From NCBI GenBank assembly GCA_020832235.1, contig JAFIEZ010000018.1, forward strand, positions 186,001 through 250,000: DNA of 64,000 nt, given 5' to 3'. This DNA is from Bacteroidota bacterium (GTDB lineage: Bacteria; Bacteroidota; Rhodothermia; Balneolales; HLUCCA01). The notes beneath the pieces are model-generated. The model worked only from the letters and a program-made list of their open reading frames with translations. It was not told where the DNA came from and did no database searches. Within the stretch, counting starts at the first letter, position 1; each line of letters begins with the position of its first letter. This document shows positions 37,048 through 63,551 of the stretch, one piece after another. The position numbers were made by a program, and so were the translations under genes.

Positions 37048-38328
37048 TTATCGTGCTTCGAGGCGCTGCTTACGGAGTGCTGCTTCGATGAAATAGTAAT
37101 CTGCATAAATGAGGGGTACGTCTATTTCATAACCATGCGGTAAATGACCGGTACTCCTTTCAAGCAGGAAACCAAAGTTCTCTCCATCAGCCGACCTGAA
37201 ATTGTGATAGACGCTGGCCAGAATTTGATCTGCCTTATTCTTGTAATATGCACTTTGGTTGGTACCCATGGTGCTGAGTTCATATAGTGCAGATGCTGTT
37301 ATCGTGGCTGCTGATACATCGCGCGCCGTATTGGGTTGATTTGGATCATCATAATCCCAGAATGGGACCAGATCTGCAGGAAGGTTCGGATGATTGAGGA
37401 TGAATTCCGCAATATTTTCTGCCTGCTGCAGAAATTCAGCGTACCCTGTAAATCGGTATGACATGACATACCCGTAGAGCCCCCATGCCTGACCTCTCGC
37501 CCAGTTGGAAGCATGGAAAGCACCTTGATGCGTGTGCTGTGCGGTCAATTCACCCGTCTCGGGATTAAATCCTGCTACGTGGTATGAACTGTAGTCATCA
37601 CGGAAGAGTACATCGATTGTAGTTCTGGCGTGTTCAACGGCGATATCATAGAAGACGGAATCTCCCGTAATCTGCGTTGCCCGGAAGAGGAGTTCCAGAT
37701 TCATCATGTTGTCAATTATAACCGGGAAATCCCAACGGTCTGTATTATGATCCCACGAGCGTATTGCCCCTACGGTAGGGTTGAAACGGGTTATTAGTGT
37801 GCGGGCAGACTCTACAATAACATCACGGTAATGTGGATCATCAACCAGGCGATACCCCTGTCCGAAGCTGCAGTAGATTTTAAAGCCCATATCGTGAGTT
37901 CCGGCGTTGGTTTTTTCCCGTTCAATGTGCGCGGTATGTCTTTTCGCGTGTTCCAGCCAGTACGTTTCGCCGGTGTACTCATACATAAACCAAAGCAAAC
38001 CGGGCATGAATCCGCTTGTCCAGTCGCGAGAGGGAATAATAAACAGTTCTCCGTCACGAACAGCCCGACTGTTGACATGCGGTCCGCGGTTGCTCATTGG
38101 GTTTCGTTCAATCGCGGCATCTGTTTCATCGATTAAAATAACCAGCTGCTGGCTTGCAAAATCCATAATTTCCTCAACGGTTACGTCGGGAATCCGTTGA
38201 GAATCGGACTTCGTGCAGGATACGGCCAGTAAAGAAAAGCCCAGCATCAAAAGCAGCGCTGGATAAAAAGAGGCTTTCAACGCAGACCGAAAATTCAGCT
38301 GCACTTGGGTAAATACATTATTTTTCAT
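37048..38328 (-). CDS. GH88 unsaturated glucuronyl hydrolase, lipoprotein
   Basis: Removes the delta-4,5-unsaturated uronic acid left at the non-reducing end of oligosaccharides by polysaccharide lyases; the product becomes 5-keto-4-deoxyuronate. The signal peptide ends in the lipobox LLAVSC with Cys38, so the enzyme is anchored in the periplasm or at the outer membrane. The catalytic aspartates correspond to Asp146 in HDMGFKIYCSFG and Asp206 in FPVIIDNMMNLELL, matching the two essential Asp of Bacillus UGL. ASNWARGQAWGLYGY is a further family signature. It is divergent from kduI-kduD, the next two steps, with which it shares a 397-bp regulatory region. Confidence 0.93.
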   Translation of the reverse strand: MKNNVFTQVQLNFRSALKASFYPALLLMLGFSLLAVSCTKSDSQRIPDVTVEEIMDFASQQLVILIDETDAAIERNPMSNRGPHVNSRAVRDGELFIIPSRDWTSGFMPGLLWFMYEYTGETYWLEHAKRHTAHIEREKTNAGTHDMGFKIYCSFGQGYRLVDDPHYRDVIVESARTLITRFNPTVGAIRSWDHNTDRWDFPVIIDNMMNLELLFRATQITGDSVFYDIAVEHARTTIDVLFRDDYSSYHVAGFNPETGELTAQHTHQGAFHASNWARGQAWGLYGYVMSYRFTGYAEFLQQAENIAEFILNHPNLPADLVPFWDYDDPNQPNTARDVSAATITASALYELSTMGTNQSAYYKNKADQILASVYHNFRSADGENFGFLLERSTGHLPHGYEIDVPLIYADYYFIEAALRKQRLEAR

Positions 38329-38725: not shown

Positions 38726-39553
38726 ATGATTATCAGGAATGCAATTGGACCGGGCGAAACAAAAAATATGGATACACAGGACCTCAGAGCCAATTTTCTT
38801 GTTGAGAGTGTAATGCAGGATGGGAAAATTTCCATGACCTATACCCACTACGATCGTCTGGTAATCGGAGGGGCGGTACCAGCTGATAAACCACTCATAC
38901 TTGAAGCTGACGAGGCCATTAAATCCACCTATTTTCTTGAACGAAGAGAGTTGGGAGTGATGGTGGTTTCCGGTGCCGGCATTGTGGTTGTAGATGGTAC
39001 AGAATATCCTCTTGCAACGAAGGAATGTCTGTATGTTGGTCGAGGATCTAAAGAGGTTATTTTTAAAAATGCGGGCAATGGTACGGCTCGTTTCTTTTTC
39101 ACGTCGGCTCCAGCACACGCAGCTTATCCTACCCGAAAGATGACGCAGCAGGAAGCGGAACCCGAACATTTGGGGTCTGTGGAAAAGGCGAACGAAAGAA
39201 CCATATTCAAATACATTCACCCTGCCGGCATTGAAAGCTGTCAGTTGGTGATGGGTTTTACGGAATTAAAGAAAGGAAGCGTCTGGAATACCATGCCTCC
39301 GCACACCCATGACCGCAGAATGGAGGCCTATTTTTATTTCGATGTACCTGCTGAAGATCGTGTTTGGCATTTTATGGGAGAACCAAGCGAGACACGCCAT
39401 CTGGTTATATCAAACTACCAGGCGATTATCTCACCGCCGTGGTCGATACATAGCGGTGCTGGAACTACCAATTACTCATTCATCTGGGCTATGGCCGGCG
39501 AGAATCAAAGCTTCGCAGATATGGACTTTGTTCCCCTCTCGGAAGTAAAATAA
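38726..39553 (+). CDS. kduI: 5-keto-4-deoxyuronate isomerase
   Basis: Isomerises 5-keto-4-deoxyuronate (4-deoxy-L-threo-5-hexosulose uronate) to 2,5-diketo-3-deoxygluconate, in the cytoplasm. The 275-residue cupin keeps the zinc ligands: PPHTHDRRMEAYFYF supplies two His and the Glu, and SPPWSIHSGAG the third His. The N-terminus MIIRNAIGPGETKNMDTQDL aligns with E. coli KduI from residue 1, which supports the start at 38726 over the internal Met15. It heads a plus-strand set with kduD and a DUF4861 gene. Confidence 0.96.
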   Translation: MIIRNAIGPGETKNMDTQDLRANFLVESVMQDGKISMTYTHYDRLVIGGAVPADKPLILEADEAIKSTYFLERRELGVMVVSGAGIVVVDGTEYPLATKECLYVGRGSKEVIFKNAGNGTARFFFTSAPAHAAYPTRKMTQQEAEPEHLGSVEKANERTIFKYIHPAGIESCQLVMGFTELKKGSVWNTMPPHTHDRRMEAYFYFDVPAEDRVWHFMGEPSETRHLVISNYQAIISPPWSIHSGAGTTNYSFIWAMAGENQSFADMDFVPLSEVK

Positions 39554-39666: not shown

Positions 39667-40431
39667 ATGAAAACGAATCCATTCTCACTAGAAGGTAAAA
39701 CTGCACTTGTTACCGGAGCCAGTCGTGGCCTTGGAAGAGCCATTGCCATAGCCCTTGCAGAAGCAGGTGCTGATGTTGTTTGCGCCGGTTCAAGGTCGGG
39801 AAGCGCTGATGAAACTGCGGCATTAATTGGGAAAACAGGGAGGAAAAGCTGGTCTGTTTCGGGCGATCTTTCTACCTCTGAAGGTGTAGCAACATTAACG
39901 AAAGACACGCTTGCACAGGTAGATCAGATTGACATTTTAGTCAATAATGCGGGTATTATTGAACGCTATCCCGCTGTTGAGTACCCCGAGGATGCGTGGA
40001 ATAATGTATTGCAGACCAATTTAAATGCTGTTTTTCATCTTTGCCGTGAATTTGGCAGCAAAATGGTTGCTCGCAAAGAAGGCAAGATTATCAACATAGC
40101 ATCATTACTATCGTTTTCTGGTGGCATTACAGTTCCGTCTTATGCCGCATCAAAACATGCTGTTGCCGGACTCACAAAAGCATTGGCCAATGAATGGGCC
40201 TCATCAAACATTCAAGTTAACGCTGTTGCACCCGGTTATTTCAAAACCGATAACACGCAGGCTCTTCAGGATAATGAAAAACGTTATGCTGAAATCTCAT
40301 CCCGCATACCTGCTGCCAGATGGGGTGATCCGGAGGACTTAGGAGGCGCTGTGGTATTTCTTGCTTCAAGAGCTGCAGATTATGTTAACGGGCACATCCT
40401 AACTGTTGATGGTGGCTGGATGGCCCGATAG
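39667..40431 (+). CDS. kduD: 2-keto-3-deoxygluconate 5-dehydrogenase
   Basis: Reduces 2,5-diketo-3-deoxygluconate to 2-keto-3-deoxygluconate (KDG) with NAD(P)H. The 254-residue SDR shows the cofactor motif TGASRGLG (residues 16-23), NNAG at 93-96 and the catalytic Ser146, Tyr159 and Lys163 (SYAASKHAVAGLTKA). FSLEGKTALVTGASRG at the N-terminus is typical of KduD rather than other SDRs, and the gene follows kduI by 113 bp. The KDG kinase and aldolase expected next are not in the window. Confidence 0.95.
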   Translation: MKTNPFSLEGKTALVTGASRGLGRAIAIALAEAGADVVCAGSRSGSADETAALIGKTGRKSWSVSGDLSTSEGVATLTKDTLAQVDQIDILVNNAGIIERYPAVEYPEDAWNNVLQTNLNAVFHLCREFGSKMVARKEGKIINIASLLSFSGGITVPSYAASKHAVAGLTKALANEWASSNIQVNAVAPGYFKTDNTQALQDNEKRYAEISSRIPAARWGDPEDLGGAVVFLASRAADYVNGHILTVDGGWMAR

Positions 40432-41777: not shown

Positions 41778-42016
41778 GTTGTCAATCTCCATACTGCCCT
41801 GCCGCTGTAGAAGAGGCCTCGAAGCAGCAGCGATACCGCATATAAAAACAGTGTGAGCAATCCTACCACATGAAACTGTGATATCAGTTCAGACCAGCTG
41901 CCCTGGTGCACTAAAATGGCATATACATTTGTCAAGTTTGAGAATACAAACAAAACACCCAGCAGCATCAGCTCTTGCCGGATTACTTTTTCCTTAATAA
42001 TCAGATCTTTAATCAT
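41759..42016 (-). CDS. Small two-helix membrane protein
   Basis: An 85-residue protein of unknown function with two hydrophobic helices, about residues 16-36 (LMLLGVLFVFSNLTNVYAIL) and 47-68 (HVVGLLTLFLYAVSLLLRGL), and basic ends. Its ATG overlaps the stop of the upstream Tat-exported oxidoreductase as ATGA, indicating translational coupling and a shared job, perhaps as a membrane anchor. There are no Cys or haem-binding His pairs and no flavinylation motif. The tight coupling, full-length helices and clean end support a real gene. Confidence 0.75.
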   Translation of the reverse strand: MIKDLIIKEKVIRQELMLLGVLFVFSNLTNVYAILVHQGSWSELISQFHVVGLLTLFLYAVSLLLRGLFYSGRAVWRLTTKGTQS

Positions 42017-43308
42017 GCTTGACAGGGTTTGATTTTATACTTTTCAGGGAGTGTAAGGATGGTTCCTTCACGGGAAGCTTCATCCGCTAAAAGCGACCAG
42101 GTAGAAGCGTTGTACCCTTCTTCGGTGAGCTTTGGAGGTGCTTCACCTTTCCTCACAAATTCAATGAAGCCCTCCAGAAATAGCAGCGTTTCGTTGAGCT
42201 GATAGTCCGGTGAAATATAATTCCCTCCGTACTTAACGGCTTCAGCCGGAATCCAGGTAGCGCCACCTATGGGTATGGTTTCAAAGATGCTCTTCTCAAT
42301 GTTATGGATAAGTGTTCTGATTGCAGGAGGTCGGGGCGGTGTTTCGGCAAAATGTCTGTTAGCTTCCAGCTGCATGGTACCTTCGTTGCCCAGTACCTGA
42401 AACCCCACTCCGTTGTGTCGATTACTGTCCAGCAAGTCATAGGTAAAGTGAACACCGTTTGGATAGGTGAATACAAGCGAGTAATTATCGTACACTTCCC
42501 TTCCATCGGTGTGGTAATTTAAACTACCGCTGCCCATGACGGATAGCGGCTCACTGTCGAGTACCCAGTTGGCCAACTGAAAATGATGAGAGCCTAGTTC
42601 GGTAATCTGTCCGGCAGAATAATCCCAATACAGTCTCCAGTTACGCTGTCGATCCAGAGCACTGCCTCTTCCACCAGGTACGTCATAGAAAATCCATGGT
42701 GTATTGCGTGTCCACCAGCCCCGAAGTTTGGTGATTTTACCCAATTCCCCATTGTTAATCATTTCGAGGGCTTTGATGTAGACCGGACTAAACAATCGTT
42801 GATGCCCTACCAACATGATTTTACCCGAATCAATATGGGCATCGTACATCGCTTTGGTATCGTCAAGCGTTCTGGCCATGGCCTTTTCCACAAATACATG
42901 AATACCCATTTGCATTGCATCGATTGTCATCTGGGCATGCTCATGAAGCGGCGTAGCAATAATTACCGCATCCATTTGGACTTTATCCAGCATTTCACGG
43001 TAGTCTAAAAATCCTTCTGCCTGACCATTGATCATGGCAACGGCACGTTCTTTATGTTCGGGCCATGTATCGCAAACCGCCACAATATCGATGTTCATGC
43101 GGGCCTGAAACTCCTGCACATTAAGCATCAATGTCTGCCCTCTGGAACCTACTCCAATAAAGCCGACGCGTACACGGTCAGATGCGCTCATGCCTGCACC
43201 CGACGGGTTTGTGAATACCGTAAACCAGGGCATCTGAGCTGCCAGAAATGTTGTTCCGGCTAAACCGGAAATCATCTCTATGAAGGCCCTTCTGTTCATA
43301 TTTGTCAT
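42013..43308 (-). CDS. Tat-exported Gfo/Idh/MocA-family oxidoreductase
   Basis: A 431-residue protein with a Tat-type N-terminus (NRRAFIEMISGLAG, residues 5-18), so it is folded with its cofactor before export to the periplasm. The Rossmann motif VGFIGVGSRGQT (48-59) is complete. The usual EKP motif of the family reads EKA (Glu141-Lys142-Ala143). WIFYDVPGGRGSALDRQRNWRLYWDYSAGQITELGSHHFQLANW, quoted only by its ends WIFYDVPGG and ITELGSHHFQLANW, is a typical C-terminal domain part. It likely oxidises or epimerises a sugar with tightly bound NAD(P). It is third of four genes in a compact set with ApbE. Confidence 0.88.
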   Translation of the reverse strand: MTNMNRRAFIEMISGLAGTTFLAAQMPWFTVFTNPSGAGMSASDRVRVGFIGVGSRGQTLMLNVQEFQARMNIDIVAVCDTWPEHKERAVAMINGQAEGFLDYREMLDKVQMDAVIIATPLHEHAQMTIDAMQMGIHVFVEKAMARTLDDTKAMYDAHIDSGKIMLVGHQRLFSPVYIKALEMINNGELGKITKLRGWWTRNTPWIFYDVPGGRGSALDRQRNWRLYWDYSAGQITELGSHHFQLANWVLDSEPLSVMGSGSLNYHTDGREVYDNYSLVFTYPNGVHFTYDLLDSNRHNGVGFQVLGNEGTMQLEANRHFAETPPRPPAIRTLIHNIEKSIFETIPIGGATWIPAEAVKYGGNYISPDYQLNETLLFLEGFIEFVRKGEAPPKLTEEGYNASTWSLLADEASREGTILTLPEKYKIKPCQA

Positions 43309-43336
43309 AATATTTTAATTTTCAGTATGAGAGTAA

Positions 43337-44269
43337 TCAGTGGCTAACTGAGGTAGCTTCATATTCCCACACTTTTTTATTAATCTGATTATCTGTGTAA
43401 TCTACTTTCAATACTACTATATCTGAAAAATGATTTACCAACTGCTGAATGTGTTCCTCCGGCATAGCTAATATAGCCGTAGAAAGAGCTTCAGCATCCC
43501 GGGCTGAATGTGAGTATACCGTAGCGGAAACGAGTTCATCGATCGGGTATCCTGTTTGGGGATTTATAACATGACGATGATTAATTAAAGTACCGTCATC
43601 GTCTGGATAAAAATTACTTGATGTGGAGACCGATCCATCCCTCATTTGAAATGTATGTACCGCTTCATCTGCATTCAGGTAGTTTTTGATGCCCACCTTC
43701 CAGTGATCGCCGGCCGGGTGATGACCTACAGTGAGCACAGAACTCTCCCCCATCGTAATAAATGCAGACTTAATCCCAAAACGTGTTAGCATTTGGTGCA
43801 CTTTCTCGAGTGCGTAACCTTTCCCGAAGCCCCCTAGGTCTATGTCGAGGTGCTCATTTTTGAAAGATATAACGCGATTCTCGGGATTTAATTCAATGTT
43901 GGAGGTACCCGTACGAGCGAGTATCTCGTCAATTTCATTTTTCTCGGCCTGAGGATGTTCTTTCCAATACTCCAGAATTGGTCGTAATGTGATGTCGAAG
44001 TATCCTTGCGTGATTTGATGATACCGGCAGCAGGAGTTTATAACTTCAAATATTTCATTATCTGTTTCTACCGGTTGGCTGACGGCATATTTATTGATTG
44101 AAAAAATATCGCTCCCGTCGTGAAACCGGCTAAGCTTACCTTCAATTCTGGCGATTTCATTTTGAACATGACGAAAGACAGCATCGGCGGCGTCATCATC
44201 AAAACCGGGCAAAACAATATTGCATCGTGTGCCCATGGCATAAAAGCTGGTATGTGCCACATGTGCCAT
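43337..44269 (-). CDS. apbE: ApbE-like FAD:protein FMN transferase
   Basis: Attaches FMN covalently to Ser/Thr of target flavoproteins, using FAD. The 310 residues contain AMGTRCNIVL at the start, DIDLGGFGKGYALEKV, INHRHVINPQTGYPIDE and HSARDAEALSTAILAM, the signatures of the family including the metal/FAD-binding residues. Unlike most ApbE proteins there is no signal peptide or lipobox, so it should act in the cytoplasm, unless an unseen upstream start exists. It begins 3 bp after a Gfo/Idh gene and ends 28 bp before the Tat-exported one. I found no canonical [S/T]GA[S/T] flavinylation site in the neighbours. Confidence 0.92.
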   Translation of the reverse strand: MAHVAHTSFYAMGTRCNIVLPGFDDDAADAVFRHVQNEIARIEGKLSRFHDGSDIFSINKYAVSQPVETDNEIFEVINSCCRYHQITQGYFDITLRPILEYWKEHPQAEKNEIDEILARTGTSNIELNPENRVISFKNEHLDIDLGGFGKGYALEKVHQMLTRFGIKSAFITMGESSVLTVGHHPAGDHWKVGIKNYLNADEAVHTFQMRDGSVSTSSNFYPDDDGTLINHRHVINPQTGYPIDELVSATVYSHSARDAEALSTAILAMPEEHIQQLVNHFSDIVVLKVDYTDNQINKKVWEYEATSVSH

Positions 44270-44272
44270 TGA

Positions 44273-45349
44273 TTAAACCTCCTGATCTGTAGTAAACGGA
44301 TGAAGGTTATCGGGGCTGATGGGAGTTTGCTGTTTAGCTGAGAGGTATGCAGCCTGCACAAAAGCCAGCGCGTTCAGGCTCTCCTCCCCCGATACAGGGG
44401 GCTGTACATCAGATTGGAGTGCTGAGATTATTTGGCGATACTGCTCGGTGTGGTAGCTGTTCGAAAAGCCGGCCAGCGGACTTGATGATCCACCCGAAAC
44501 TACCGCTGATGAAGAGGTGGGTGATGTAGTATCTGTGTAACCTTCAACATGAACGAGCAGATTATCTCCATCCAGGATGGCGGTACCTTTTGTGCCATGA
44601 AACTCAATTTTCCGGTTTTGCGAAGGTGTTATGGATGTTGATGCTTCAAATGTGCCTAAAGCCCCGTTTTTAAAGCGCATGGATGCTACAAGATTGTCTT
44701 CCCCTTCAATTCCATCATGAGTGAGGGTTGCAGAGAAAGCAGATATCATGTCAACCGGTCCTGCCAGCCAGAGCATAAGGTCAACCGTGTGAATACTCTG
44801 ATTGATGAGTGCACCTCCACCATCCAGTTCCAAGCTACCCCTCCAGGGAGCGTTTGTATAGTATGCCTGATCACGAAACCACTTTACGGAGGCGCTTACC
44901 ATTACGAGTTTGCCAATTGTTCCCGCATCTAGGATTTGTTTAAGCTTGCGAACTTCACCAATAAATCGATTCTGATAGATAACTGCGAGTTGAACCTTAC
45001 GCTGTTTACAATATTCAATGAGTTCCATGCCTTTTTCAACATTTACTTCCAAAGGCTTTTCGATAATCAGGTGCTTGCCATGGTCTGCGGCAAGTTTACC
45101 ATAATGTAGGTGGGTACCATTTGGAGTACATAGCACTACAGCGTCCAGGTCAGTGCGTAGAAATGCTTCGTAACTGGTGTAGCCTTTTGTACCATATTTC
45201 TCACAAAATTTCTGCACGTTTTCCTCTGAACGGCTACATGATGCAACCAGAGCAGCGTGGTCTAACGTAGCTATAGCTTCCGCATGAACAGAAGCAATGG
45301 TCCCGCAACCGACAATTCCAAATTTGTATTTCTGCGTAGTTGATGTCAT
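44273..45349 (-). CDS. Cytoplasmic Gfo/Idh/MocA-family oxidoreductase
   Basis: A 358-residue NAD(P)-dependent oxidoreductase without an export signal. The Rossmann motif FGIVGCGTIASVHAEAI begins at residue 10 and the EKP motif is at 97-99 (HLIIEKPLEVN). ALINQSIHTVDLMLWLAGP is the typical sugar-site region. It resembles inositol- or sugar-dehydrogenase relatives; the substrate is unknown. It is first in the minus-strand set with ApbE, the Tat-exported relative and the 85-aa membrane protein, and its 172-bp upstream region holds an inverted repeat of AAATCGTTT. Confidence 0.9.
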   Translation of the reverse strand: MTSTTQKYKFGIVGCGTIASVHAEAIATLDHAALVASCSRSEENVQKFCEKYGTKGYTSYEAFLRTDLDAVVLCTPNGTHLHYGKLAADHGKHLIIEKPLEVNVEKGMELIEYCKQRKVQLAVIYQNRFIGEVRKLKQILDAGTIGKLVMVSASVKWFRDQAYYTNAPWRGSLELDGGGALINQSIHTVDLMLWLAGPVDMISAFSATLTHDGIEGEDNLVASMRFKNGALGTFEASTSITPSQNRKIEFHGTKGTAILDGDNLLVHVEGYTDTTSPTSSSAVVSGGSSSPLAGFSNSYHTEQYRQIISALQSDVQPPVSGEESLNALAFVQAAYLSAKQQTPISPDNLHPFTTDQEV

Positions 45350-45521
45350 TTATTTATGAGGAATCTTCGGTATACCTAAGGTTATGGGTATCTCTGTTTA
45401 AATCGTTTTAATTGAAACTTACATGAATATTATCGGGGTAGTTGTAAATGTATCTAAACGATTTCGTTACATTTGTATACGTGTGTGCTGTGGTTATGAT
45501 TTTGGTTGCAGTACTTCACGC

Positions 45522-46754
45522 TCATTGGTAAGTAACACTGATACCGGGCGGATATGCATAATCGCTCCATAGTCTGTCCATTAAGGCGGCATCCGGTTCA
45601 CCGTCGCTGGTTATTATTCGAAACCTTGTTACATATGGCCGCCCCGGCTGGATACTCATTTCACCCATTTGTGTTGGAGCAAAATTGAAAAACGGCTCTG
45701 ATGGATGAATTCTTGCGGGTTGAGGGAAACGATAATTCGAGGGATGTGCCATGATTGCGAATCCAGCCAGGTGATCGTCGATATAGCCACCCATGTGTAC
45801 CCACCTTGCCCGCTGAGCGTTACCATCTCTTCCCAGACCTTCAGACGTGAGGAATTCTGACATAAAAGGGTCGTCCCAATCTTTATGACCACGAAATCCT
45901 ATCCCACCATACCGATATTCCGGTAATATCAGTGGACTTCCGGTATTAGTTGTTTGGGTTACGGTGATGTCAAATATGTGGTAAGCCTTATCTGTACGGG
46001 GAATGTCAAATACCCGAACTTCCCACATTTCGTTTAGGGCAATTTTCGATTCCTCACCTGTAAGATCAACAAAGTGGTGTCTGGAAACGAGGCCGCCCAT
46101 GACCGGACCTTCCCAGTAATGAAGCATCGTATCAATGTCGACTCTACCAGAGTTCCGGTGCACATTCCAAAAATCCGGTGTATTTCCCTCAAATACGGTG
46201 TTTGTCCAGGCTGACCAAATGCCTGCGTGGTGCGGATGCTGCTGGGCGTTGAGGTGATTAGTTAATTCAAAGCCGTCGGGAGAGAAAATCGGATGTATGT
46301 AGCCCCCTCGTTTATAACGTTCGTCGAGCTCCTGAGGAGGTGAGTTTTCACCGTGGAAGTATCGCAACACACTTCCCTGTGAAGTACGAAATTCTATAGT
46401 AACATCATTTTTAAGAATAGAAACCGCTTGTTGAGCAGATGAATTGGCTACGGATGACTGATTCTGTGCTTGAGAGACGGTCTTTACCGTGAATACTGTA
46501 TTTGTACCTGCTTTTAGTGAGGGTAGCACAAACCAACCGGTATTCTCAGCATCAACTTGCAGGAGCGATTCGGTACCAGTTTCATCTGTTAACACATAGC
46601 TGCCGGATTCAAGGGAAATAGGCAGGGGGAAATGTATGATCGTATTGGTTCGATCAAACGCACCGGCATCAACATGAATGTTAAATTCCTGAGCTGAGAG
46701 AACGGGAATTGTCACCATGAAATTCAGAATGAGTATGGGCAATAATGATTTCAT
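45522..46754 (-). CDS. DUF6807 (PmoA-like) secreted protein
   Basis: A 410-residue exported protein (signal peptide ending VLSAQ) of the DUF6807 family, formerly labelled PmoA, which accompanies Gfo/Idh/MocA and TIM-barrel isomerase genes in glycan loci of Bacteroidota and Planctomycetota. Conserved parts are KRGGYIHPIFSPDG, LNAQQHPHHAGIW and YRYGGIGFRGHKDW. The His-rich segment could bind a metal or the active-site sugar. It is not a methane monooxygenase subunit. It lies between the two oxidoreductase groups. The function is not established. Confidence 0.8.
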   Translation of the reverse strand: MKSLLPILILNFMVTIPVLSAQEFNIHVDAGAFDRTNTIIHFPLPISLESGSYVLTDETGTESLLQVDAENTGWFVLPSLKAGTNTVFTVKTVSQAQNQSSVANSSAQQAVSILKNDVTIEFRTSQGSVLRYFHGENSPPQELDERYKRGGYIHPIFSPDGFELTNHLNAQQHPHHAGIWSAWTNTVFEGNTPDFWNVHRNSGRVDIDTMLHYWEGPVMGGLVSRHHFVDLTGEESKIALNEMWEVRVFDIPRTDKAYHIFDITVTQTTNTGSPLILPEYRYGGIGFRGHKDWDDPFMSEFLTSEGLGRDGNAQRARWVHMGGYIDDHLAGFAIMAHPSNYRFPQPARIHPSEPFFNFAPTQMGEMSIQPGRPYVTRFRIITSDGEPDAALMDRLWSDYAYPPGISVTYQ

Positions 46755-46865
46755 GTGTTTTATTATTCAACAGGTTACCCTCATATCCAAGCAGCTAACA
46801 TCATGGTTGCAAACTCCGAGCTATTCGAAGAGCCTATTGCATTACTGCTACATAGATTAAAACCC

Positions 46866-46922
46866 AAAAAGACACCTCAGTCCGGTAAATACGCCGTAAG
46901 CATATTCATTGGTCTGAGGTGT
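46866..46922 (-). terminator. Intrinsic terminator after the Tat-exported oxidoreductase gene
   Basis: On the minus strand ACACCTCAG pairs with CTGAGGTGT (plus-strand positions 46914-46922 and 46872-46880), followed by CTTTTTGGG. The loop is about 33 nt. Confidence 0.7.
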
Positions 46923-46941
46923 ACATTCTTGGGGAGGGTCA

Positions 46942-48276
46942 CTAGATTCGTGGCTCCCAGCCTGGCTCATACTGGCGGCTCCATAGGCTCATCGCCTCAG
47001 AATCACCGATAATACGCCCGTTGCGTGGGTCTAAGTTCAATGATCGGCCAACATATTGGGAGATATTGGCGAGGTGGAGTGCTTTTACAGAGATTTGTCC
47101 TTCATCTATAGGAGAGTTCAGTTTTTCACCTCTGGTAATCGCTTTAGCAAAGTTATCGATGTGCAGATCGGTCATGTCACCGCCTCCAACCGTGTCGAGT
47201 GCGTCCACTACCTGACCAACTTTGACGCTTTTAACTTCTTTGTTATCCATGTCGTAAACGATATAACCGCTACGATCTATGAGGATGGTACCCTTGGTTC
47301 CATGAATGGTTGTACCTCTGCCTCTATCGTAAAACTGGAATCCATTTGCACTTCGGCCTTCCCAATTGATTAGTTTGCCTTCAGCAAATTCAAAATTCAC
47401 GTTTTGTGTGTCATAAAATTCCCAATCATCATCAAAGGCAAACCTTCCGCCAGCAGAGCTGATGCGGGTAGGATGGGTAACACCGAGAGCCCAGCGTGCG
47501 ATGTCGTATTCATGCGTTCCATTGTTCAATGCTTCACCTGTACCCCATTTCCAGAACCAGTGCCAGTTATAGTGAATAATATTATCACGATAAGGAGTTC
47601 TCGGGGCAGGACCTTGCCATAACTCGTAATCTAACCACTCCGGTACCGGAGCAATTCGTCCTCTTCCTATGGTATCGCGTGGATTGGCGTAGAATGCTTT
47701 TGCATAATATGGTTCACCAATAATTCCGTCGGCGATGTCTTTCATAGCCTGAATTGACTCGGGAGCAGATCGTTGTTGGTTACCCATTTGCACTACTTTA
47801 CCGTATCGCTGAGTAGCCTGAACAATGAGGTCGGCTTCTGCAGGGTTATGGCTACCAGGCTTTTCTACGTACACATGCTTACCAGCCTTCAAGGCCATAA
47901 TGGTGGCAGCGGTATGCCAGTGATCGGGCGCGGCAACAACCAATGCGTCAACATCGGGGTCTTCCAATGCCTTGCGGAAATCTGTACCGGTTTCTGGTCG
48001 AGTACCTTGTTTTTCAGCTACCTTTTCTGCCAAGCCTGCAAGAGGACGGTTATCTACATCGTATAGCGATTTTACATGTGTGCCTTTAACTTCGGCGAAG
48101 GTATTGGCCAATACGGAAGCGCGGCTTCTGGCGGCCATTACCGCAACATTTACGCGATCATTGGCTCCAAGAACAGAGCCTTTTGCCATAGTAAAGGGCC
48201 CTGCAAGGCCAATTCCGGCGCCCACCACGGCCGATTTTTTTAAGAAGTCACGTCGACTTACATTTTTTACAGACAT
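46942..48276 (-). CDS. Tat-exported Gfo/Idh/MocA-family protein with altered Rossmann motif
   Basis: A 444-residue family member with a clear Tat signal (SRRDFLKKSAVVGAGIGLAG, residues 7-26). The EKP motif (138-140, HVYVEKPGSHN) and C-terminal domain (ALNNGTHEYDIARWALGV) are intact. However, the glycine-rich loop that normally reads G-x-G-x-x-G is AARSRA (residues 48-53), so all three glycines are replaced. Either the dinucleotide is held differently or lost. The spacing to the upstream lipoprotein relative is 49 bp, so these two exported proteins are likely produced together. The usual substrate class is sugars; none can be assigned. Confidence 0.88.
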   Translation of the reverse strand: MSVKNVSRRDFLKKSAVVGAGIGLAGPFTMAKGSVLGANDRVNVAVMAARSRASVLANTFAEVKGTHVKSLYDVDNRPLAGLAEKVAEKQGTRPETGTDFRKALEDPDVDALVVAAPDHWHTAATIMALKAGKHVYVEKPGSHNPAEADLIVQATQRYGKVVQMGNQQRSAPESIQAMKDIADGIIGEPYYAKAFYANPRDTIGRGRIAPVPEWLDYELWQGPAPRTPYRDNIIHYNWHWFWKWGTGEALNNGTHEYDIARWALGVTHPTRISSAGGRFAFDDDWEFYDTQNVNFEFAEGKLINWEGRSANGFQFYDRGRGTTIHGTKGTILIDRSGYIVYDMDNKEVKSVKVGQVVDALDTVGGGDMTDLHIDNFAKAITRGEKLNSPIDEGQISVKALHLANISQYVGRSLNLDPRNGRIIGDSEAMSLWSRQYEPGWEPRI

Positions 48277-48325
48277 AGTTTAATCTCCGATAAAATTAAC
48301 TGAGTGATTTGAAATGATTTACATA

Positions 48326-49726
48326 CTACCGTGATGCATTTTGAAGAGCCAGTTCTCTGCCATGTGTTGTGATATAATATTTGGCAATCATATTTGGAAC
48401 TTCCCAATCAGGTAGCGCACCTTGTCTTAGGTATTGGAAGAATGACTGAGCAACCATCCCGAAATGGGCTTCGTGACCGTAATGAAATTCGTCGGGTATT
48501 TGAAGCTCCCATCCTCCAGGCACTTCCACATATCCGGCGCCCGGGTACTGCTGCTGCAACCTGGTCATCATTGAGGCAAAGGCAGGCTGAAGCTCCTGCA
48601 TCGTAACACCATCGGCAGGCTCTACGTATACCGTAGCTCTGTAGTTTTGCTCCATCCCTTGTCTTACTACCAGATTAGAACGTGTACCCCGGATCATCGT
48701 GAAGTGGGTATCATTACCACCTTCAGGGGCTTCATAGTCCCATTGCACACGTACTCTAACGTGGTGACCGTTCAGTAAATAATCAATTTCCCCATTACTG
48801 TATAGTGGAAGATTCCCTTGTCGATTCAACTGATCGCGCAGATAATCTGGAAATTGAGCTTCTCCTGTAATTCGCTGAAATTGGGGGCGGGTAACCAAGG
48901 TATACCACCTACGCGCATCCAATAAGGTTACATCTTCTTCGTAGTTTATAATTTGATCAGGAAATGCAACCCACATAGATAAATCTACCAGGTGTACAGT
49001 TACATCTACAATGCCTTCCCCTTGCTGTCGTACATCAAAATACCATGGCGGACGCTGAAGCGGAGATCCGGCTACGTATTTGAACAAGTGGTGGATACTT
49101 TCTTTGAAGATTGCCGGTTCTTCTTTGGAACCTACAACAAGCTCGCCAAACACATCCTGTTCCTGCATGAGCCTGCGTAAAACACCGGATGTAACCTCAC
49201 GACGTTCTGTCATGATATCATATAGTAAGACGTTATTTTCTTCAGCTTGCTGAAAAGCATCGCGCAAGAGTTCCCAGCCTTCCGTGTCTATGGCCATGGG
49301 CTTATCTGACAATACATTGATCCCTCTGCTGAGCGTCTGGTGGATATAGCTGGTTTTAAGGCGATTATTTCCAGCCGTTACCATTACGTTCCCCAATCTC
49401 ATATTAAGCATGCGTTCGAGGTAGTTCCTGCCCGTAAACACATGTGAAACCCAGTTTGTAGGATCATCGGCTCTATTGTTGAACCCTTCAATTCTAGACA
49501 TGTGTAAGTCTATGTCTGGACCATTTGGTGCGAAAACAAATACATTTTCGTCAAGGTCCGGAATGTTATTTTTTTGAATGAGCGCTGCATGAAAATGACC
49601 CGGATTAAGGGTCATCAGTCTGAACTTTTCAGGCTCTGCCGGCTCTTCATTACTAGTGCACCCAACAGTCATAAGTGCAATACCCATAAGCGGTAAAAAG
49701 GTTCTGGCAAATTTTTTAAACGTCAT
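48326..49726 (-). CDS. Lipoprotein oxidoreductase relative (putative oxidoreductase C-terminal domain)
   Basis: A 466-residue lipoprotein (lipobox ALMTVGC near residue 23). The N-terminal half is a degenerate Gfo/Idh Rossmann fold starting FRLMTLNPGHFHAALIQK, where the glycine-rich loop is replaced by NPGHFHAA, and the EKP position reads DKP (VLSDKPMAID). The second half matches the putative oxidoreductase C-terminal family found with exported Gfo/Idh proteins in Bacteroidota. It probably acts on sugars in the periplasm or at the cell surface. It heads a pair with the Tat-exported gene 49 bp downstream. Confidence 0.82.
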   Translation of the reverse strand: MTFKKFARTFLPLMGIALMTVGCTSNEEPAEPEKFRLMTLNPGHFHAALIQKNNIPDLDENVFVFAPNGPDIDLHMSRIEGFNNRADDPTNWVSHVFTGRNYLERMLNMRLGNVMVTAGNNRLKTSYIHQTLSRGINVLSDKPMAIDTEGWELLRDAFQQAEENNVLLYDIMTERREVTSGVLRRLMQEQDVFGELVVGSKEEPAIFKESIHHLFKYVAGSPLQRPPWYFDVRQQGEGIVDVTVHLVDLSMWVAFPDQIINYEEDVTLLDARRWYTLVTRPQFQRITGEAQFPDYLRDQLNRQGNLPLYSNGEIDYLLNGHHVRVRVQWDYEAPEGGNDTHFTMIRGTRSNLVVRQGMEQNYRATVYVEPADGVTMQELQPAFASMMTRLQQQYPGAGYVEVPGGWELQIPDEFHYGHEAHFGMVAQSFFQYLRQGALPDWEVPNMIAKYYITTHGRELALQNASR

Positions 49727-50060
49727 TTTTTAATCCAGTGATTTCAGGTTTAATCCGTATGGAGGTATTTCGGTTAATTTTGCGGCATTAAGCCACCAGC
49801 AATAGCCCATTTTGACCTCACTTAATCGGTTACTAAATATAATGGTCTACTTTTAGATAACAAATTAAAATCGCTTCCAGAGGGCATTATTTACACCCGT
49901 AAACAAGTCCTTTTTACCCGTCTAGGCGGTTGCTGCCGATACGATTTCAGGCGATCAACATCCGTACTGCTAGATTGTATGCCATGATGACAAAAGACAT
50001 CCGGTTCTGGCGTTAAACCCGTTGCAGCAGGCTAAAAATAAACGAGCCCGAGAGATTGTC
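49727..50060. other. Intergenic region upstream of the lipoprotein oxidoreductase
   Basis: About 334 bp. It contains the presumed promoter of the gene at 49726 and a possible 26-codon leader frame (49730-49810). I see no RNA gene, insertion sequence or recognisable gene remnant. Confidence 0.6.
49730..49810 (-). CDS. Possible 26-codon leader peptide
   Basis: A short frame starts at an ATG with GAGG spaced 6 bases upstream, a better ribosome-binding site than most genes here. It encodes MGYCWWLNAAKLTEIPPYGL and six more residues, and stops one codon before the ATG of the oxidoreductase gene, in the same frame. It may be a leader peptide for translational coupling, or chance. Confidence 0.3.
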   Translation of the reverse strand: MGYCWWLNAAKLTEIPPYGLNLKSLD

Positions 50061-50585
50061 TTAATTCCGAATAAACGGGTTGTTTTCAGAATGAATTTCA
50101 GAAGGCATATTTTCGGATGTAACCGATCCACGCACTCTATATTCCTTGCCGCTGATCGGACCTTTCAGTACCATATCAAAGTTACCTTTGATGAAGTTTC
50201 GTTGTATCTCCGTTATGGTAAATGAGCCCGTTTGCGATGCCAGACGTTCAACGGGGTCCATACCATCAAACATACAAAGCATAGCTGTGCGAACTTGTTC
50301 CCGATCTACAACGTCATAGGTTCCGGGTCCAGGTGCAACACTGAAATTCAGCATATGAATAACGCAACGGCTCGTACTGTCAACTCCCATAGTTATGGTA
50401 TAACTTGACGGAGTCATCATAAGCTCCGAAGTACCATTTAGGCTAAACTCCTCGTCTTCGTGCTCCACAGTTAGATGAAATATGTAGCTCGGGTTATTGG
50501 GATCGTTTGCCATTGCCTGCATATTGACTGAAAAAGCGATTATGCACGCAAAAAGAAATGTAGGTACGATTTTACTGAACTTCAT
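50061..50585 (-). CDS. Small secreted protein, unknown function
   Basis: A 174-residue protein with a signal peptide (hydrophobic FLFACIIAFSVNM, cleavage near QAMA/ND). I do not recognise the family. The mature part is predicted all-beta, with GTYDVVDREQVRTAMLCMFDG in the middle and two cysteines (CVIHM, LCMF) that might form a disulfide; the fold could be lipocalin-like or a small binding domain. It sits downstream of the PL5/PL38-like gene, after a 21-bp palindrome, and may belong to the same locus. Confidence 0.65.
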   Translation of the reverse strand: MKFSKIVPTFLFACIIAFSVNMQAMANDPNNPSYIFHLTVEHEDEEFSLNGTSELMMTPSSYTITMGVDSTSRCVIHMLNFSVAPGPGTYDVVDREQVRTAMLCMFDGMDPVERLASQTGSFTITEIQRNFIKGNFDMVLKGPISGKEYRVRGSVTSENMPSEIHSENNPFIRN

Positions 50586-50623
50586 AGAATTCTATCGGAT
50601 TAGTGAGTGGGTTTGTAACATAG

Positions 50624-50644
50624 AACGTTTTATCGTAAAACGTT
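50624..50644. repeat. 21-bp palindrome AACGTTTTA-TCG-TAAAACGTT
   Basis: Two perfect 9-bp arms (50624-50632 and 50636-50644) around TCG, in the 67-bp gap between the lyase stop and the next start. No T run follows, so an operator or a processing hairpin fits better than a terminator. Confidence 0.6.
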
Positions 50645-50652
50645 AGTGTAAC

Positions 50653-51864
50653 TTATGCCGGATTTGGTAGTCCAACCCAGAGAATTATGTTTTTTAGCAC
50701 CAGATTCCGCAGGCCTTCATGCGATAAAGGGACCTCAGGAACATTTTGCCAGGTAGTGAGGTATTCCATATCGTCGTAGGCCATGGCCGAAAGCAACAAA
50801 AATGGTTGCTGACCGGGCAGTTCATCCCAATAATCAACGTCTGGTTCAAAGGGCCATTCCTCTTTGTGTCGGGTATAATGATGAATGAAATCAACAGCCT
50901 TTTTCATTCCACGACCATCTTCCAGTTCAAAATCCCAGATACCAAGTCCTTCTATTTCCAGAATATGAGCCAGTAAAACCATCCCATTGATGTTAAAAAA
51001 CGAGTACGCGTATGGACGAGTTCTTTCCAGTTCATAATGGAAGCTGCCATCGTCCGACATTTGATTCGGAATGAGAATGGATTTCGTTCTTTCCCGAACA
51101 AATTCCAATGATTCTTCGTCACCTGTGAGGCTGGCAAATGCAGCAACCTGTGCATGCCACCAGGTTCCGTGATTATTGCGCCAGTTCATTTCCTCTATAC
51201 CGTAAGGATGTGTTTTGAGCCAGACGGTATATGCATTGAACCATGTTTTAATCGCTTCGATATCAAATTGACTCACATAGGGTGACTGCGCCAGAATATT
51301 GGCTGCCTGTGCAACATCAATCAGATGCACGGTATCAATAATTCCGATACCTCTTCCGGTTACTCTGCCTGTTATTGCCTGAGCGTAACGCAGATGAGGA
51401 TTCATCTTTGTGTCAGGATTCACAAACCATGCATTGAGATGCCTCATTGCATGCTCAGCATAACGTTGGTCACCGGTAAGCAGATAGGCAGCCGTGAGGG
51501 TTCCGGATATGGTAGACAACCGTTTCATAGCATCGAGGTGATCCACAAAATTATCGGGATTCACAATGCCATCTCTGCGAATGTAAGGTCCGCCGGGATT
51601 ATCCGGATCGGGCCACCAGTACGTACCTTCCGAAAAGTAATCGTGCAGTCCACCCGCGCTTCGCTCACTACTTGATGCCGTTACAGTGACGGGCTCAGCC
51701 GCCAGGAATGCATCGGCAGACTCAATCACACGTTGACGTTCCGCTTCAACAATCACCTCGACAACAGCATCCTGAATAGAGCCTCGTTGTTGCTCTGATT
51801 GCGAACATGCCGTGGCTACGGCAAATAACAGGATACCTGTTGTGATGGTTGTATGAAGCTTCAT
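50653..51864 (-). CDS. PL5/PL38-like polysaccharide lyase, lipoprotein
   Basis: A 403-residue lipoprotein (lipobox VATAC, Cys20) of the alginate-lyase superfamily, an alpha/alpha-barrel. TYWWPDPDNPGGPYIRRDG (81-99) and Asn231-His232 in RNNHGTWWHAQ are family signatures; ELERTRPYAYS supplies Arg281 with Tyr285/Tyr287, the likely catalytic base and acid. The WWPDPDNPGGPY form is typical of the branch that includes PL38 glucuronan lyases more than of true PL5 alginate lyases. With GH88 and KduI/KduD in the locus, cleavage of a glucuronate- or galacturonate-containing chain is more likely than of alginate. It is 69 bp downstream of the TIM-barrel gene. Confidence 0.85.
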   Translation of the reverse strand: MKLHTTITTGILLFAVATACSQSEQQRGSIQDAVVEVIVEAERQRVIESADAFLAAEPVTVTASSSERSAGGLHDYFSEGTYWWPDPDNPGGPYIRRDGIVNPDNFVDHLDAMKRLSTISGTLTAAYLLTGDQRYAEHAMRHLNAWFVNPDTKMNPHLRYAQAITGRVTGRGIGIIDTVHLIDVAQAANILAQSPYVSQFDIEAIKTWFNAYTVWLKTHPYGIEEMNWRNNHGTWWHAQVAAFASLTGDEESLEFVRERTKSILIPNQMSDDGSFHYELERTRPYAYSFFNINGMVLLAHILEIEGLGIWDFELEDGRGMKKAVDFIHHYTRHKEEWPFEPDVDYWDELPGQQPFLLLSAMAYDDMEYLTTWQNVPEVPLSHEGLRNLVLKNIILWVGLPNPA

Positions 51865-51933
51865 GTTAACGTGCGTTTTGGTTTTGGTGCTGTTCTGACA
51901 CCTTTCGACAGATATTAGAACACATCTGCAAGA

Positions 51934-52812
51934 TTAGTCAGCGGTTATGCTCAGAATGTAGGCCCGGCTTTGCGGCAAACGTGAAACGACCTCAGGATGT
52001 CCATCTTCAATGAAGAAATACTCGATATTGGTATCCATTGATGCCCGGAGCACGCTTGGGAAGTCAACCTGGCCGGTGCCCAGAATTACATCGTTCTCGA
52101 TCGGTGTTCCACCGGAGAGATCACCAACAACGCCTTTTTTGAGGTCTCGCAGGTGCATGAGGCGGAATCTATCGGGATATCGCTGCAGCAGCTCTACAGG
52201 ATCATGCCCTGGATGAACAACCCACATCACATCCATTTCAAAGCTCACATACTCGGGATTGGTATTTTGAACCATATAGTCGAACAAGGTTCCATCACCG
52301 TGTGGCACGAACTCGAAACCATGATTGTGATATGCAAAGCGAATGTCATAATTAAGCAAGTACCGACCGGCATTATTGAAATGCTGCACCGCTTCACGGG
52401 CCATTTCCAGGGTGAACATGCCATCGCGTGGAATATTGGCAACGCGTACAAACTTCGCGCCCAATGTAGAAGCATCGCTGGCAATTTGCGTGAGGTCGTT
52501 TTGGATGCCGACGTAGCTCACGCCATAGGAAATCGCGTACATGCCACGCTCATCAAGCAGCTCACGAAGCTCTGCCGCAGTAAGTCCGAAAAGACTGGAA
52601 AACTCAATTTTTGTGATGCCTATTTCTTTGAGCATATCGAGTGTTCCGGGCACATCTTCAGCAAATTGATTGCGGAGTGACCACGACACTACACCAGGAT
52701 CAGATACGATGGGCTCTGATTGTGGCGGTGGGGTTTGCTGGCATCCGATGGAGGTTATAAAAATAACAGCCATCATTGCCATTAACGTTATTTTGCTTGA
52801 TACGCTTTTCAT
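51934..52812 (-). CDS. Lipoprotein TIM-barrel sugar isomerase/epimerase-like protein
   Basis: A 292-residue member of the AP endonuclease 2 / xylose isomerase-like TIM-barrel family, exported as a lipoprotein (lipobox TSIGC, Cys24). Metal-binding positions are retained: Glu in IEFSSLFG or AYHNHGFEF, Asp in FEMDVMWVVHPGHDP, His in LMHLRDLKKG and Glu in YFFIEDGHPE. Cytoplasmic relatives isomerise sugars, but exported ones in Bacteroides act with Gfo/Idh oxidoreductases on 3-keto-glycosides, which suits the neighbours at 42-50 kb. It lies between the deacetylase and the lyase in one minus-strand run. Confidence 0.86.
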   Translation of the reverse strand: MKSVSSKITLMAMMAVIFITSIGCQQTPPPQSEPIVSDPGVVSWSLRNQFAEDVPGTLDMLKEIGITKIEFSSLFGLTAAELRELLDERGMYAISYGVSYVGIQNDLTQIASDASTLGAKFVRVANIPRDGMFTLEMAREAVQHFNNAGRYLLNYDIRFAYHNHGFEFVPHGDGTLFDYMVQNTNPEYVSFEMDVMWVVHPGHDPVELLQRYPDRFRLMHLRDLKKGVVGDLSGGTPIENDVILGTGQVDFPSVLRASMDTNIEYFFIEDGHPEVVSRLPQSRAYILSITAD

Positions 52813-56421: not shown

Positions 56422-58245
56422 TTACTGCACTTGCGCATCTCGTGCTACCTGTTCTGGGCCGTCCGTTATGCCCATTTGTTTTAGCTCTGCGGTTATGGTT
56501 TCCAAGTCGCCATTGCGCTGTGCCGAGGTCGTGATGGCCTCAACGGCTTCATCACCCAGCCTTTGCCGAAGCTGCTCCATAAATAAGCTTCTTGGCTCAA
56601 CCATACCTTCGGGGTACACTATAGAATGACGATGAAGATATACGATATTCGTGCCTTCAATTCTGTTCAGTTGTAGTCCTGATCGATTTTGTATCCAGTT
56701 TTTGCGGTTGGTAAGTGAACGTTCATCTACTTCTGTGGTCCGGTAACCTACAACCAGGTTTCTGGCAAAAGGCGGATCCATGGCGCCCATTACTTTTGCT
56801 CCGCTGTTCCAGATGACGGTCCAGGCTCCAGACCACCCGTGACCGGTGCCGGAATCCCCGCGATTCATTACCCATAGCCCTGCGGCCGGACCAAAAACTT
56901 CAATATTGTCGAACAGAACACCATGGCTGTATCGGTGGTGGGGCTCTGAAACAGAGAGGGCTTCTTCAGCCCGGCAATCTACAAATGCATTCGGACCGGG
57001 AGTAAAAGCCTGAAGCACAAAGTCGTGTCTGCCTGTTTCACTGTAACATCGCATCATGAGATTTTGATGCCCGTTGATTAGAAAAGGATACCGCTGACTT
57101 CCGGCTATAGGGCTCACCATATCAAGATTTGCCGCATCCATCACGGTAACCTGTTGTGCCTGCGGACGAAGGTAGACCGTTGCAAAGGCAAAGTGAACTC
57201 CAGTAATATTGCGAACCCACGAATTCACGATGTTATCCATCACAATGGCATTTCGGGAATGGTAAGGATCGGTACGTTCGGTGGGATGGTAGTCGAAATC
57301 CGACACGAGTCGTACGTGTTCAACGCCCACTTCCTGGATTCTACCGGATCCATCTGCGAGAGCAACCCATCCTCCTCCAAATTGGTCTTCAATAGCGTGA
57401 ACGGTGGGGGCATCTATAATGATGGTATTACCTTCAACACCCACTACCCTTCTATTCCAGTTAAAGCTATACACTTCGGGTTTCCAGGGAACATTTGGAT
57501 ATTCAAACAAATGCATACCCAGCTCCTCTACCCAGTGGTCGTTGGCCGCGCGATGCACAATGATTTTGTCGCCCGGGCTGAACGCGGATGCATCTTGAAC
57601 CGGTATTCGATGGGTGCCTACCGGTACGCGAGCTTCGGCAACGGGTGTGCGCGTACCTTCGATTTCGGTCATTCCGGCTGTGCCATGGATGTAGAGCAGT
57701 GATCTGGTATCTGTACCCATCGCAATGATTACCGTGCCTTGCTGATGCTGACCCTCTCCGCGCAATACCACACCACTTTCATTGATTCTTAATTGACCAT
57801 AAACCCGGTACACACCGGATTTGAGGAGGAGTGCACCGCGATGTCCGTCTGCATTGGCAGGCATGGCAGCTACGGCGTCGATGGCAGCCTGTATGCGGTC
57901 TGTATCGTCGGCATTACCTTCGGTAGGCTCAAGTATTTTCACGGTGGATACATCCGGTAAAGGTCGGGAGCTGTGGTGATAGCCAACCCAGGAAAAGTCG
58001 GGGATACGGTCGCCGTTGTTGTCGGCTACAGGTATTAACTGTCCATTTTCTATGCGTAACAGAGCCCCTGGATCATCAGATTGCACGGTATTTTCCGACC
58101 CGGGTATCTTATCACCGAATCCACATGCATATACTGTCAGCAGCATAATTGGCAATAGTACTAACTGGCACAGGGAAGTGCGCTGCTTTGTTGAGGGAGT
58201 GTTAATGAAGTTATTGTTAGACTTATGTCTATCCTTTTTTTGCAT
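56422..58245 (-). CDS. Beta-helix lipoprotein, pectate-lyase-like, distant copy
   Basis: A 607-residue lipoprotein (lipobox TVYAC, Cys41) with a right-handed parallel beta-helix: GHRGALLLKSGVYRVYG is the pectate-lyase-3-like start (near residue 134), and repeated GVEHVRLVSD-type turns follow. It shares with the two genes upstream the segments NGDRIPDFSWVGYH, GRHDFV (Asp408), HHRYSHGVLFDN and NRGDSGTGHGWSGAW, in the same order, but lacks the FN3-like and T9SS domains. It may be a surface lyase, epimerase or binding protein for the uronan. It is 10 bp downstream of the 851-aa gene, so they form an operon. Confidence 0.83.
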   Translation of the reverse strand: MQKKDRHKSNNNFINTPSTKQRTSLCQLVLLPIMLLTVYACGFGDKIPGSENTVQSDDPGALLRIENGQLIPVADNNGDRIPDFSWVGYHHSSRPLPDVSTVKILEPTEGNADDTDRIQAAIDAVAAMPANADGHRGALLLKSGVYRVYGQLRINESGVVLRGEGQHQQGTVIIAMGTDTRSLLYIHGTAGMTEIEGTRTPVAEARVPVGTHRIPVQDASAFSPGDKIIVHRAANDHWVEELGMHLFEYPNVPWKPEVYSFNWNRRVVGVEGNTIIIDAPTVHAIEDQFGGGWVALADGSGRIQEVGVEHVRLVSDFDYHPTERTDPYHSRNAIVMDNIVNSWVRNITGVHFAFATVYLRPQAQQVTVMDAANLDMVSPIAGSQRYPFLINGHQNLMMRCYSETGRHDFVLQAFTPGPNAFVDCRAEEALSVSEPHHRYSHGVLFDNIEVFGPAAGLWVMNRGDSGTGHGWSGAWTVIWNSGAKVMGAMDPPFARNLVVGYRTTEVDERSLTNRKNWIQNRSGLQLNRIEGTNIVYLHRHSIVYPEGMVEPRSLFMEQLRQRLGDEAVEAITTSAQRNGDLETITAELKQMGITDGPEQVARDAQVQ

Positions 58246-63491: not shown

Positions 63492-63527
63492 GGTCGTACT
63501 ACTACGTGGGATGATGATCATGTAAAC

Positions 63528-63551
63528 CAAAAAAAAGGGCGTGAGAGCCCT
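63528..63551 (-). terminator. Terminator-like hairpin in the leader of the 857-aa beta-helix gene
   Basis: On the minus strand AGGGC-TCTCAC-GCCCT (63551-63536) is followed by eight T residues. It lies only 38 nt before the chosen ATG (8 nt before the alternative), so it may act as an attenuator. An upstream arm CCTCG (63600-63596) can pair with CGAGG (63553-63549) and would disrupt it. Confidence 0.6.

Follow-up and report, generated by a model that had tools for sequence, protein, structure and literature searches.

A candidate envelope route of 3-keto-type glycoside cleavage encoded within a uronate polysaccharide locus of a Balneolales bacterium

Breaking glycosidic bonds by way of 3-keto intermediates, an uncommon alternative to hydrolysis, has been described only recently and chiefly in gut Bacteroidota and soil proteobacteria. 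Could such a route also operate in the cell envelope of an environmental lineage and on uronic-acid polymers? The question is raised by a run of nine genes in the window analysed here, a 64,000-nucleotide stretch of a 3.4 Mb, 97% complete Balneolales genome (assembly GCA_020832235.1, contig JAFIEZ010000018.1, positions 186,001 to 250,000). In the open reading frame listing of the window, these genes all lie on the minus strand and span 42013-52812; from 52812 downwards they encode a TIM-barrel lipoprotein, a lipoprotein of the alginate-lyase family, a secreted protein of 174 residues, a PF16490 lipoprotein, the twin-arginine translocation (Tat) exported Gfo/Idh protein TatGfo2, a DUF6807 protein, a cytosolic Gfo/Idh protein, an ApbE-like protein and a second exported Gfo/Idh protein, TatGfo1. 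The original prediction had listed two Tat-type Gfo/Idh proteins, a lipoprotein relative of Gfo/Idh, a lipoprotein TIM barrel and a DUF6807 protein at this place; all of these open reading frames are present there and their families are confirmed by Pfam and NCBIfam model scores compared with family cut-offs, the procedure used for all domain assignments, while the genes for the ApbE-like protein, the cytosolic Gfo/Idh, the alginate-lyase-family protein and the 174-residue protein come in addition. From sequence and predicted structure, we moderately favour the view that this operon encodes an oxidation-dependent route cleaving uronic-acid glycosides in the cell envelope.

Of all the genes in the locus, the one whose function can be assigned most firmly encodes the TIM-barrel lipoprotein (51934..52812, minus strand; AP_endonuc_2 38.8 bits, cut-off 31.1; lipobox SIGC), predicted to be a 3-keto-glycoside 1,2-lyase (eliminase). 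A phmmer search of the PDB matched it to 8tct (8e-21) and 8bvk (1e-14), and also to 8tcs and 8tcd. When its AlphaFold2 model (pLDDT 83) was compared with the PDB by Foldseek, the top matches were 8tcd and 8tcr (3-keto-beta-glucopyranoside-1,2-lyase AL1 of Alistipes), 8tct (BT1 of B. thetaiotaomicron) and 8bvk (AtOGE). These lyases occupy ranks 1-3, 5, 8 and 9, ahead of the hydratase AtHYD (ranks 24 and 27), of IolE and of the lower-ranked tagatose 3-epimerases, and are by fold the closest to the window protein within the xylose-isomerase-like barrels; two Parabacteroides structures without assigned function are also among the best matches. AtOGE (8BVK, Agrobacterium tumefaciens) is a Mn2+-dependent O-glycoside beta-eliminase, with His132, Asp163, His189 and, weakly, Glu233 as metal ligands and His134 as a catalytic residue, the H134A and H189A substitutions both abolishing activity (PMC10628242). 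In the alignment, which extends over residues 53-273 of the window protein, H132, H134, D163, H189 and E233 are all kept, as H162, H164, D194, H220 and E269, whereas a Gly stands at the position of AtOGE H66. The two systems also differ in the preceding step, since C3 oxidation is performed by a flavoenzyme in the AtOGE system (PMC10628242) and apparently by exported Gfo/Idh proteins in the window. With AL1 and BT1, the window protein shares the fold, the conserved site residues and a Bacteroidota-type genome with exported Gfo/Idh dehydrogenases, but identity is 21-23% over the structural alignment and the window protein is a lipoprotein encoded in a uronate polysaccharide locus.

The candidate glycoside 3-dehydrogenase is TatGfo2 (46942..48276, minus strand), which carries an N-terminal RRxF motif and scores 25.7 with TIGR01409 (cut-off 16.7). 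TatGfo1 (42013..43308, minus strand; PF01408 73 bits) also begins with RRxF and is Tat-like by this motif only, its first R and its F being invariant among the aligned relatives; TatC is encoded in the genome. The published BT2157/BT2158 module, formed by a DUF1080-family 3-ketotrehalose hydrolase and a glycoside 3-dehydrogenase, is similar in that a Tat-exported Gfo/Idh protein is proposed to form 3-keto sugars. It differs in that the window genome has no BT_2158-family member and no DUF1080. BT_2158 glycoside 3-dehydrogenase is the best curated family for TatGfo2, below its cut-off: the three window Gfo/Idh proteins score 128 (TatGfo2), 90 and 36 bits with the BT_2158 model (NF058561, cut-off 750) and the genome-wide best is 127; TatGfo1 obtains similar scores for several curated families. 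None of the window Gfo/Idh proteins reaches the cut-off of the BT_2158 or BT_2159 model, and the BT_2158 cut-off is exceeded in only 10 of 148 genomes of the phylum, the window genome not being among them. A tree obtained by a quick method, with long-branch warnings, places the BT_2158 family in one supported group apart from those of TatGfo1 and TatGfo2. Orthology to BT2158/BT2159 is rejected on the basis of these model scores and this tree. A DUF1080 (PF06439) gene adjoins the BT_2158-family gene in three of five reference loci; no match to this domain was found anywhere in the 97% complete window genome, which disposes of a DUF1080 protein encoded elsewhere as the missing hydrolase. The operon is thus like the published pathway in its lyase only, its dehydrogenases and hydrolase being dissimilar. 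The 3-keto-glycoside part of the original prediction therefore stands for the TIM barrel, which groups with the 1,2-lyases by predicted fold and active-site residues and has exported Gfo/Idh genes adjoining, but its equation with the published Bacteroides module does not. The best solved relatives of TatGfo2 in a PDB search are 8tdf and 8tdh, whose accession codes are adjacent to those of the named lyases and may stem from the same project.

Between the TIM barrel and TatGfo2 lies the gene of the PF16490 (Oxidoreduct_C) lipoprotein (48326..49726, minus strand; 373 bits, cut-off 27; lipobox TVGC), which is derived from Gfo/Idh proteins and matches PDB entry 4oo3 at 2e-152. It does not contain the GxGxxG nucleotide-binding motif, L[DN]PGHFHA being found instead in all four sequences aligned; the conserved motifs are HFH, DKP and H..D, with H44, H46, K142, H245 and D248 invariant. 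As a lipoprotein it probably crosses the membrane unfolded, and a loss of NAD binding would fit with such a passage. The DUF6807 protein (45522..46754, minus strand; PF14100 168.8 bits, cut-off 27) is exported and has a predicted mutarotase-like supersandwich fold (AlphaFold2 pLDDT 87), for which Foldseek returned a PL26 lyase and galactose mutarotases with weak template modelling (TM) scores of about 0.3-0.5; three of its histidines, H173, H175 and H176, are invariant. Given this mutarotase-like model, with weak matches only, its reading as a disguised DUF1080-type hydrolase is rejected. Either of the two proteins could be a hydratase. The 4oo3 structure was deposited as a hypothetical protein, and a literature search on PF16490/4OO3 and DUF6807 returned nothing useful and no assigned function for PF16490.

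The association of these genes is not limited to the window. In a survey anchored on PF16490 and comprising 80 named loci, a TatGfo2-like gene is present in 46 of 84 PF16490 loci, and of the 60 loci whose flanks reach 2.5 kb or more on either side, 37 have a Gfo/Idh-cluster gene no more than four genes away from PF16490; this clustering exceeds chance. Near PF16490, Gfo/Idh genes are more frequent than those for DUF6807, ApbE or the TIM barrel. Among the hosts of PF16490 are Balneolota, Bacteroidota, Planctomycetota, KSB1 and a single acidobacterial metagenome-assembled genome. The window-type TIM barrel co-occurs with PF16490 in L012, L023 (Natronoflexus pectinivorans) and L048, and TIM barrels of a different branch, in which the H-N-H, Asp and Glu residues are the same, are encoded immediately upstream of PF16490 in loci of Planctomycetota and KSB1. 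In other Bacteroidota, TatGfo2-like genes adjoin the TIM barrel (L176 and L178). Among named relatives of the locus, that of Balneolales bacterium PBR18_bin42 is the closest, with 90% identity for the PF16490 protein. The only genome of the same genus in the sample (G223) gave no TatGfo1 or TIM-barrel match at 1e-20, and the locus is thus patchy even within the genus.

The nature of the released sugar is suggested by the genes next to the module in other genomes. In the Balneolales locus L013, the genes after PF16490, TatGfo2 and DUF6807 encode DctP, a small protein resembling DctQ, DctM, a D-mannonate oxidoreductase (375 bits against a cut-off of 281), another short-chain dehydrogenase/reductase and glucuronate isomerase (UxaC, 591, cut-off 387). 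Orthologues of these tripartite ATP-independent periplasmic (TRAP) transporter and uronate genes (71, 68, 84, 74 and 59% identity) are clustered with a 2-keto-3-deoxy-6-phosphogluconate (KDPG) aldolase gene on another contig, C3, of the window genome. Sphingobacteriaceae loci contain UxaC and major facilitator superfamily transporters, and in L172 a TIM-barrel relative directly follows uxuA, close to UxaC and KDPG aldolase. This recurrent neighbourhood of UxaC, mannonate oxidoreductase and uxuA points to a hexuronate as the released sugar. In the window itself, the operon is accompanied by genes for KduI, the 5-dehydro-4-deoxy-D-glucuronate isomerase (38726..39553, plus strand; NF002091 418 bits, cut-off 250), KduD, the 2-dehydro-3-deoxy-D-gluconate 5-dehydrogenase (39667..40431, plus strand; TIGR01832 354.7 bits, cut-off 338.85), and an unsaturated uronyl hydrolase of GH88/GH105 type (37048..38328, minus strand; PF07470 41.4 bits, cut-off 26.6). 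The original prediction had joined the redox genes to this classical lyase/GH88/Kdu route for one polymer. Such a tie is plausible, KduI and KduD passing their models, but these two genes are on the strand opposite to the operon, and the closest relative, L012, retains the redox genes but has no gene of the alginate-lyase family between those for the TIM barrel and the 174-residue protein, which indicates that the redox module is independent of that lyase.

The route that we propose would start with a Tat-exported Gfo/Idh protein, TatGfo2 and perhaps TatGfo1, which would be folded with its NAD before export and would oxidise C3 of the sugar that adjoins the glycosidic bond. The TIM-barrel lipoprotein, acting as a metal-dependent 3-keto-glycoside 1,2-lyase, would then eliminate the aglycone and leave a 2-hydroxy-3-keto-glycal, to which water would be added back, possibly by the PF16490 or the DUF6807 protein. 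Reduction of the resulting 3-keto sugar by an exported Gfo/Idh protein would recycle the bound NADH and yield a free hexuronate, which could enter through the TRAP transporter and be processed by UxaC, mannonate oxidoreductase and KDPG aldolase, the genes for which lie at another place in the genome. In a classical branch, unsaturated uronates would be taken by the neighbouring polysaccharide lyase, the GH88/105 protein and KduI/KduD. Sequence and predicted structure support the identity and active site of the TIM barrel, the export signals, the recurrence of the gene set and, through L013, the link to TRAP and UxaC; the C3 position, the uronide substrate, the redox recycling and all assignments for the addition of water and the final reduction are steps that we infer. 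If the operon works in this way, the 3-keto route would be extended to an environmental lineage and to polymers of uronic acids, would run without DUF1080 and would be built around the widespread PF16490. The locus also provides a testable context for PF16490 and DUF6807.

Several observations weigh against this scheme. No gene of the locus can be named as a hydratase. TatGfo2 of the window species and of L012 has VMAARSRA where relatives carry MGVNSRG, MGGRGRA or VGLGRRL, so that the usual Gly-rich motif is lost and NAD binding is uncertain and may be altered. When relatives of the TIM barrel are taken as the starting point, the majority lack a Gfo/Idh gene within 1.5 kb; the association is thus real but not obligatory. 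This separation would suit exported Gfo/Idh proteins acting as self-contained glycosidases of GH109/GH4 type, with tightly bound NAD and with oxidation, elimination, hydration and reduction all carried out at one active site; the TIM barrel would then be employed elsewhere, e.g. in isomerising the released sugar. The Gfo/Idh fold with its retained EK and H motifs is compatible with such glycosidases, and a search with TatGfo1 returns the GH109 structure 6t2b at 5e-12. This match nevertheless ranks below DgpA and other dehydrogenases, and an eliminase-type barrel sharing the operon here, in L023 and in L048 would be left unexplained; we hold this explanation to be unlikely. It is more doubtful still that the module acts only on free sugars already released into the periplasm, by oxidation, reduction or epimerisation, without cleaving any glycosidic bond. 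Glucose-fructose oxidoreductase (1ofg and 1h6a, both among the PDB matches of TatGfo2) is a precedent for an exported, cofactor-bound Gfo/Idh protein with this role, and the mutarotase-like fold of DUF6807 would be in keeping with it, but the TIM barrel matches lyases better than epimerases and keeps the catalytic His of AtOGE.

The remaining objection concerns the substrate only. In the Dyadobacter loci L085, L086 and L088, a transporter gene, nagA and a gene resembling nagB (the latter recognised by eye) lie between PF16490 and TatGfo2-like genes, which suggests an N-acetylglucosamine version of the module. The module may thus serve other sugars, and the sugar need not be a uronate: the same steps could make up a 3-keto pathway of broad specificity that handles neutral or N-acetyl sugars, and not the uronate, although placed within a uronate locus, and the named lyases are indeed titled for glucosides. 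Against this stand the UxaC, mannonate oxidoreductase or uxuA genes adjoining module genes in Balneolales and Sphingobacteriaceae, as well as the Kdu genes of the window, and we retain a non-uronate substrate as a possibility of lesser but appreciable weight. A conserved, eliminative, 3-keto-type cleavage route for uronic-acid glycans in the envelope is, as judged from protein families and active-site residues, the most likely function of the module.

How exported enzymes of NAD type retain their cofactor outside the cytoplasm is a further question, raised by the pairing of TatGfo1 with a divergent relative of the FMN transferase ApbE (43337..44269, minus strand; PF02424 199 bits, cut-off 25.6), the sole ApbE of the genome, in which no signal peptide was seen by eye. 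Among the ten other close TatGfo1 relatives found in 394 genomes, nine have ApbE directly upstream (L113-L120, L122) and the tenth (L121) has a broken frame; the same arrangement is present in four named Bacteroidota loci (L023, L063, L065 and L074). In all signal-less ApbE proteins linked to TatGfo1, the conserved Asp of the ADAxSTA-type signature is replaced by Glu, GES or GNS stands for GGS and HxxDPxTGxP is partly decayed, whereas members bearing a signal peptide keep the Asp and the other usual residues. In a 2021 survey, 17% of the genomes covered were reported to have orphan ApbE genes, and DUF2271 and DUF3570 were described as targets; proteins without a signal peptide or lipidation site were excluded (PMC8238504). 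The window case is similar to these orphan systems in that ApbE occurs in a genome without FMN-binding-domain proteins, but differs by the missing signal peptide, the altered signature residues and the pairing with an exported Gfo/Idh. The genome contains no FMN_bind (PF04205) or NqrB/RnfD (PF03116) domain, the targets DUF2271 and DUF3570 not having been searched for. There is no canonical [ST]GA[ST] flavinylation site in the operon, the motif being found in its neighbourhood only in the Rossmann motif of KduD and in one large secreted protein. Conserved Ser/Thr residues were considered as attachment sites in ApbE-linked TatGfo1; T128 alone is specific to these proteins, which is not proof of flavinylation. 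R171 and Q244 replace the Tyr and Asp of unlinked relatives and are suggestive of a different substrate. We put forward, as a speculation to which we give a low probability, that the signal-less ApbE loads or covalently attaches a flavin to TatGfo1, or otherwise fixes its cofactor, in the cytoplasm before Tat export; this would make a periplasmic sugar oxidoreductase independent of diffusible NAD and would give the ApbE fold a new target and a new role.

Three further genes complete the operon. The alginate-lyase-family lipoprotein (50653..51864, minus strand; PF05426 277 bits) is a putative PL38-like polysaccharide lyase, with 3nfv (5e-56) and 8bdq (3e-42), which we take to be PL38 structures, as its nearest solved relatives. 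The secreted 174-residue protein (50061..50585, minus strand) has no Pfam or NCBIfam match and is kept in L012 at 69%. The nearest solved relatives of the cytosolic Gfo/Idh (44273..45349, minus strand) are 3q2k and 3q2i, with a phmmer match to 3q2k of 4e-54 over residues 4-341.

The surroundings of the operon are a polysaccharide locus, which includes DUF4861, proteins tagged for the type IX secretion system (T9SS) and other large secreted proteins. Beyond the window (L001, window position 62000 onward) are encoded a TonB-dependent receptor without an obvious SusD, a BNR_4 protein, an esterase, a SASA acetylesterase and several proteins without a family. A T9SS-tagged protein of 775 residues (54039-56366), 83% identical in L012 and without any family beyond the sorting tail, resembles by eye an alpha-toroid lyase and is a candidate new polysaccharide lyase. 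It is followed by three related large secreted proteins (56422-58245, 58256-60811 and 60918-63530) with little or no Pfam coverage, two of which have a SusE-like domain, and which are probable beta-helix enzymes.

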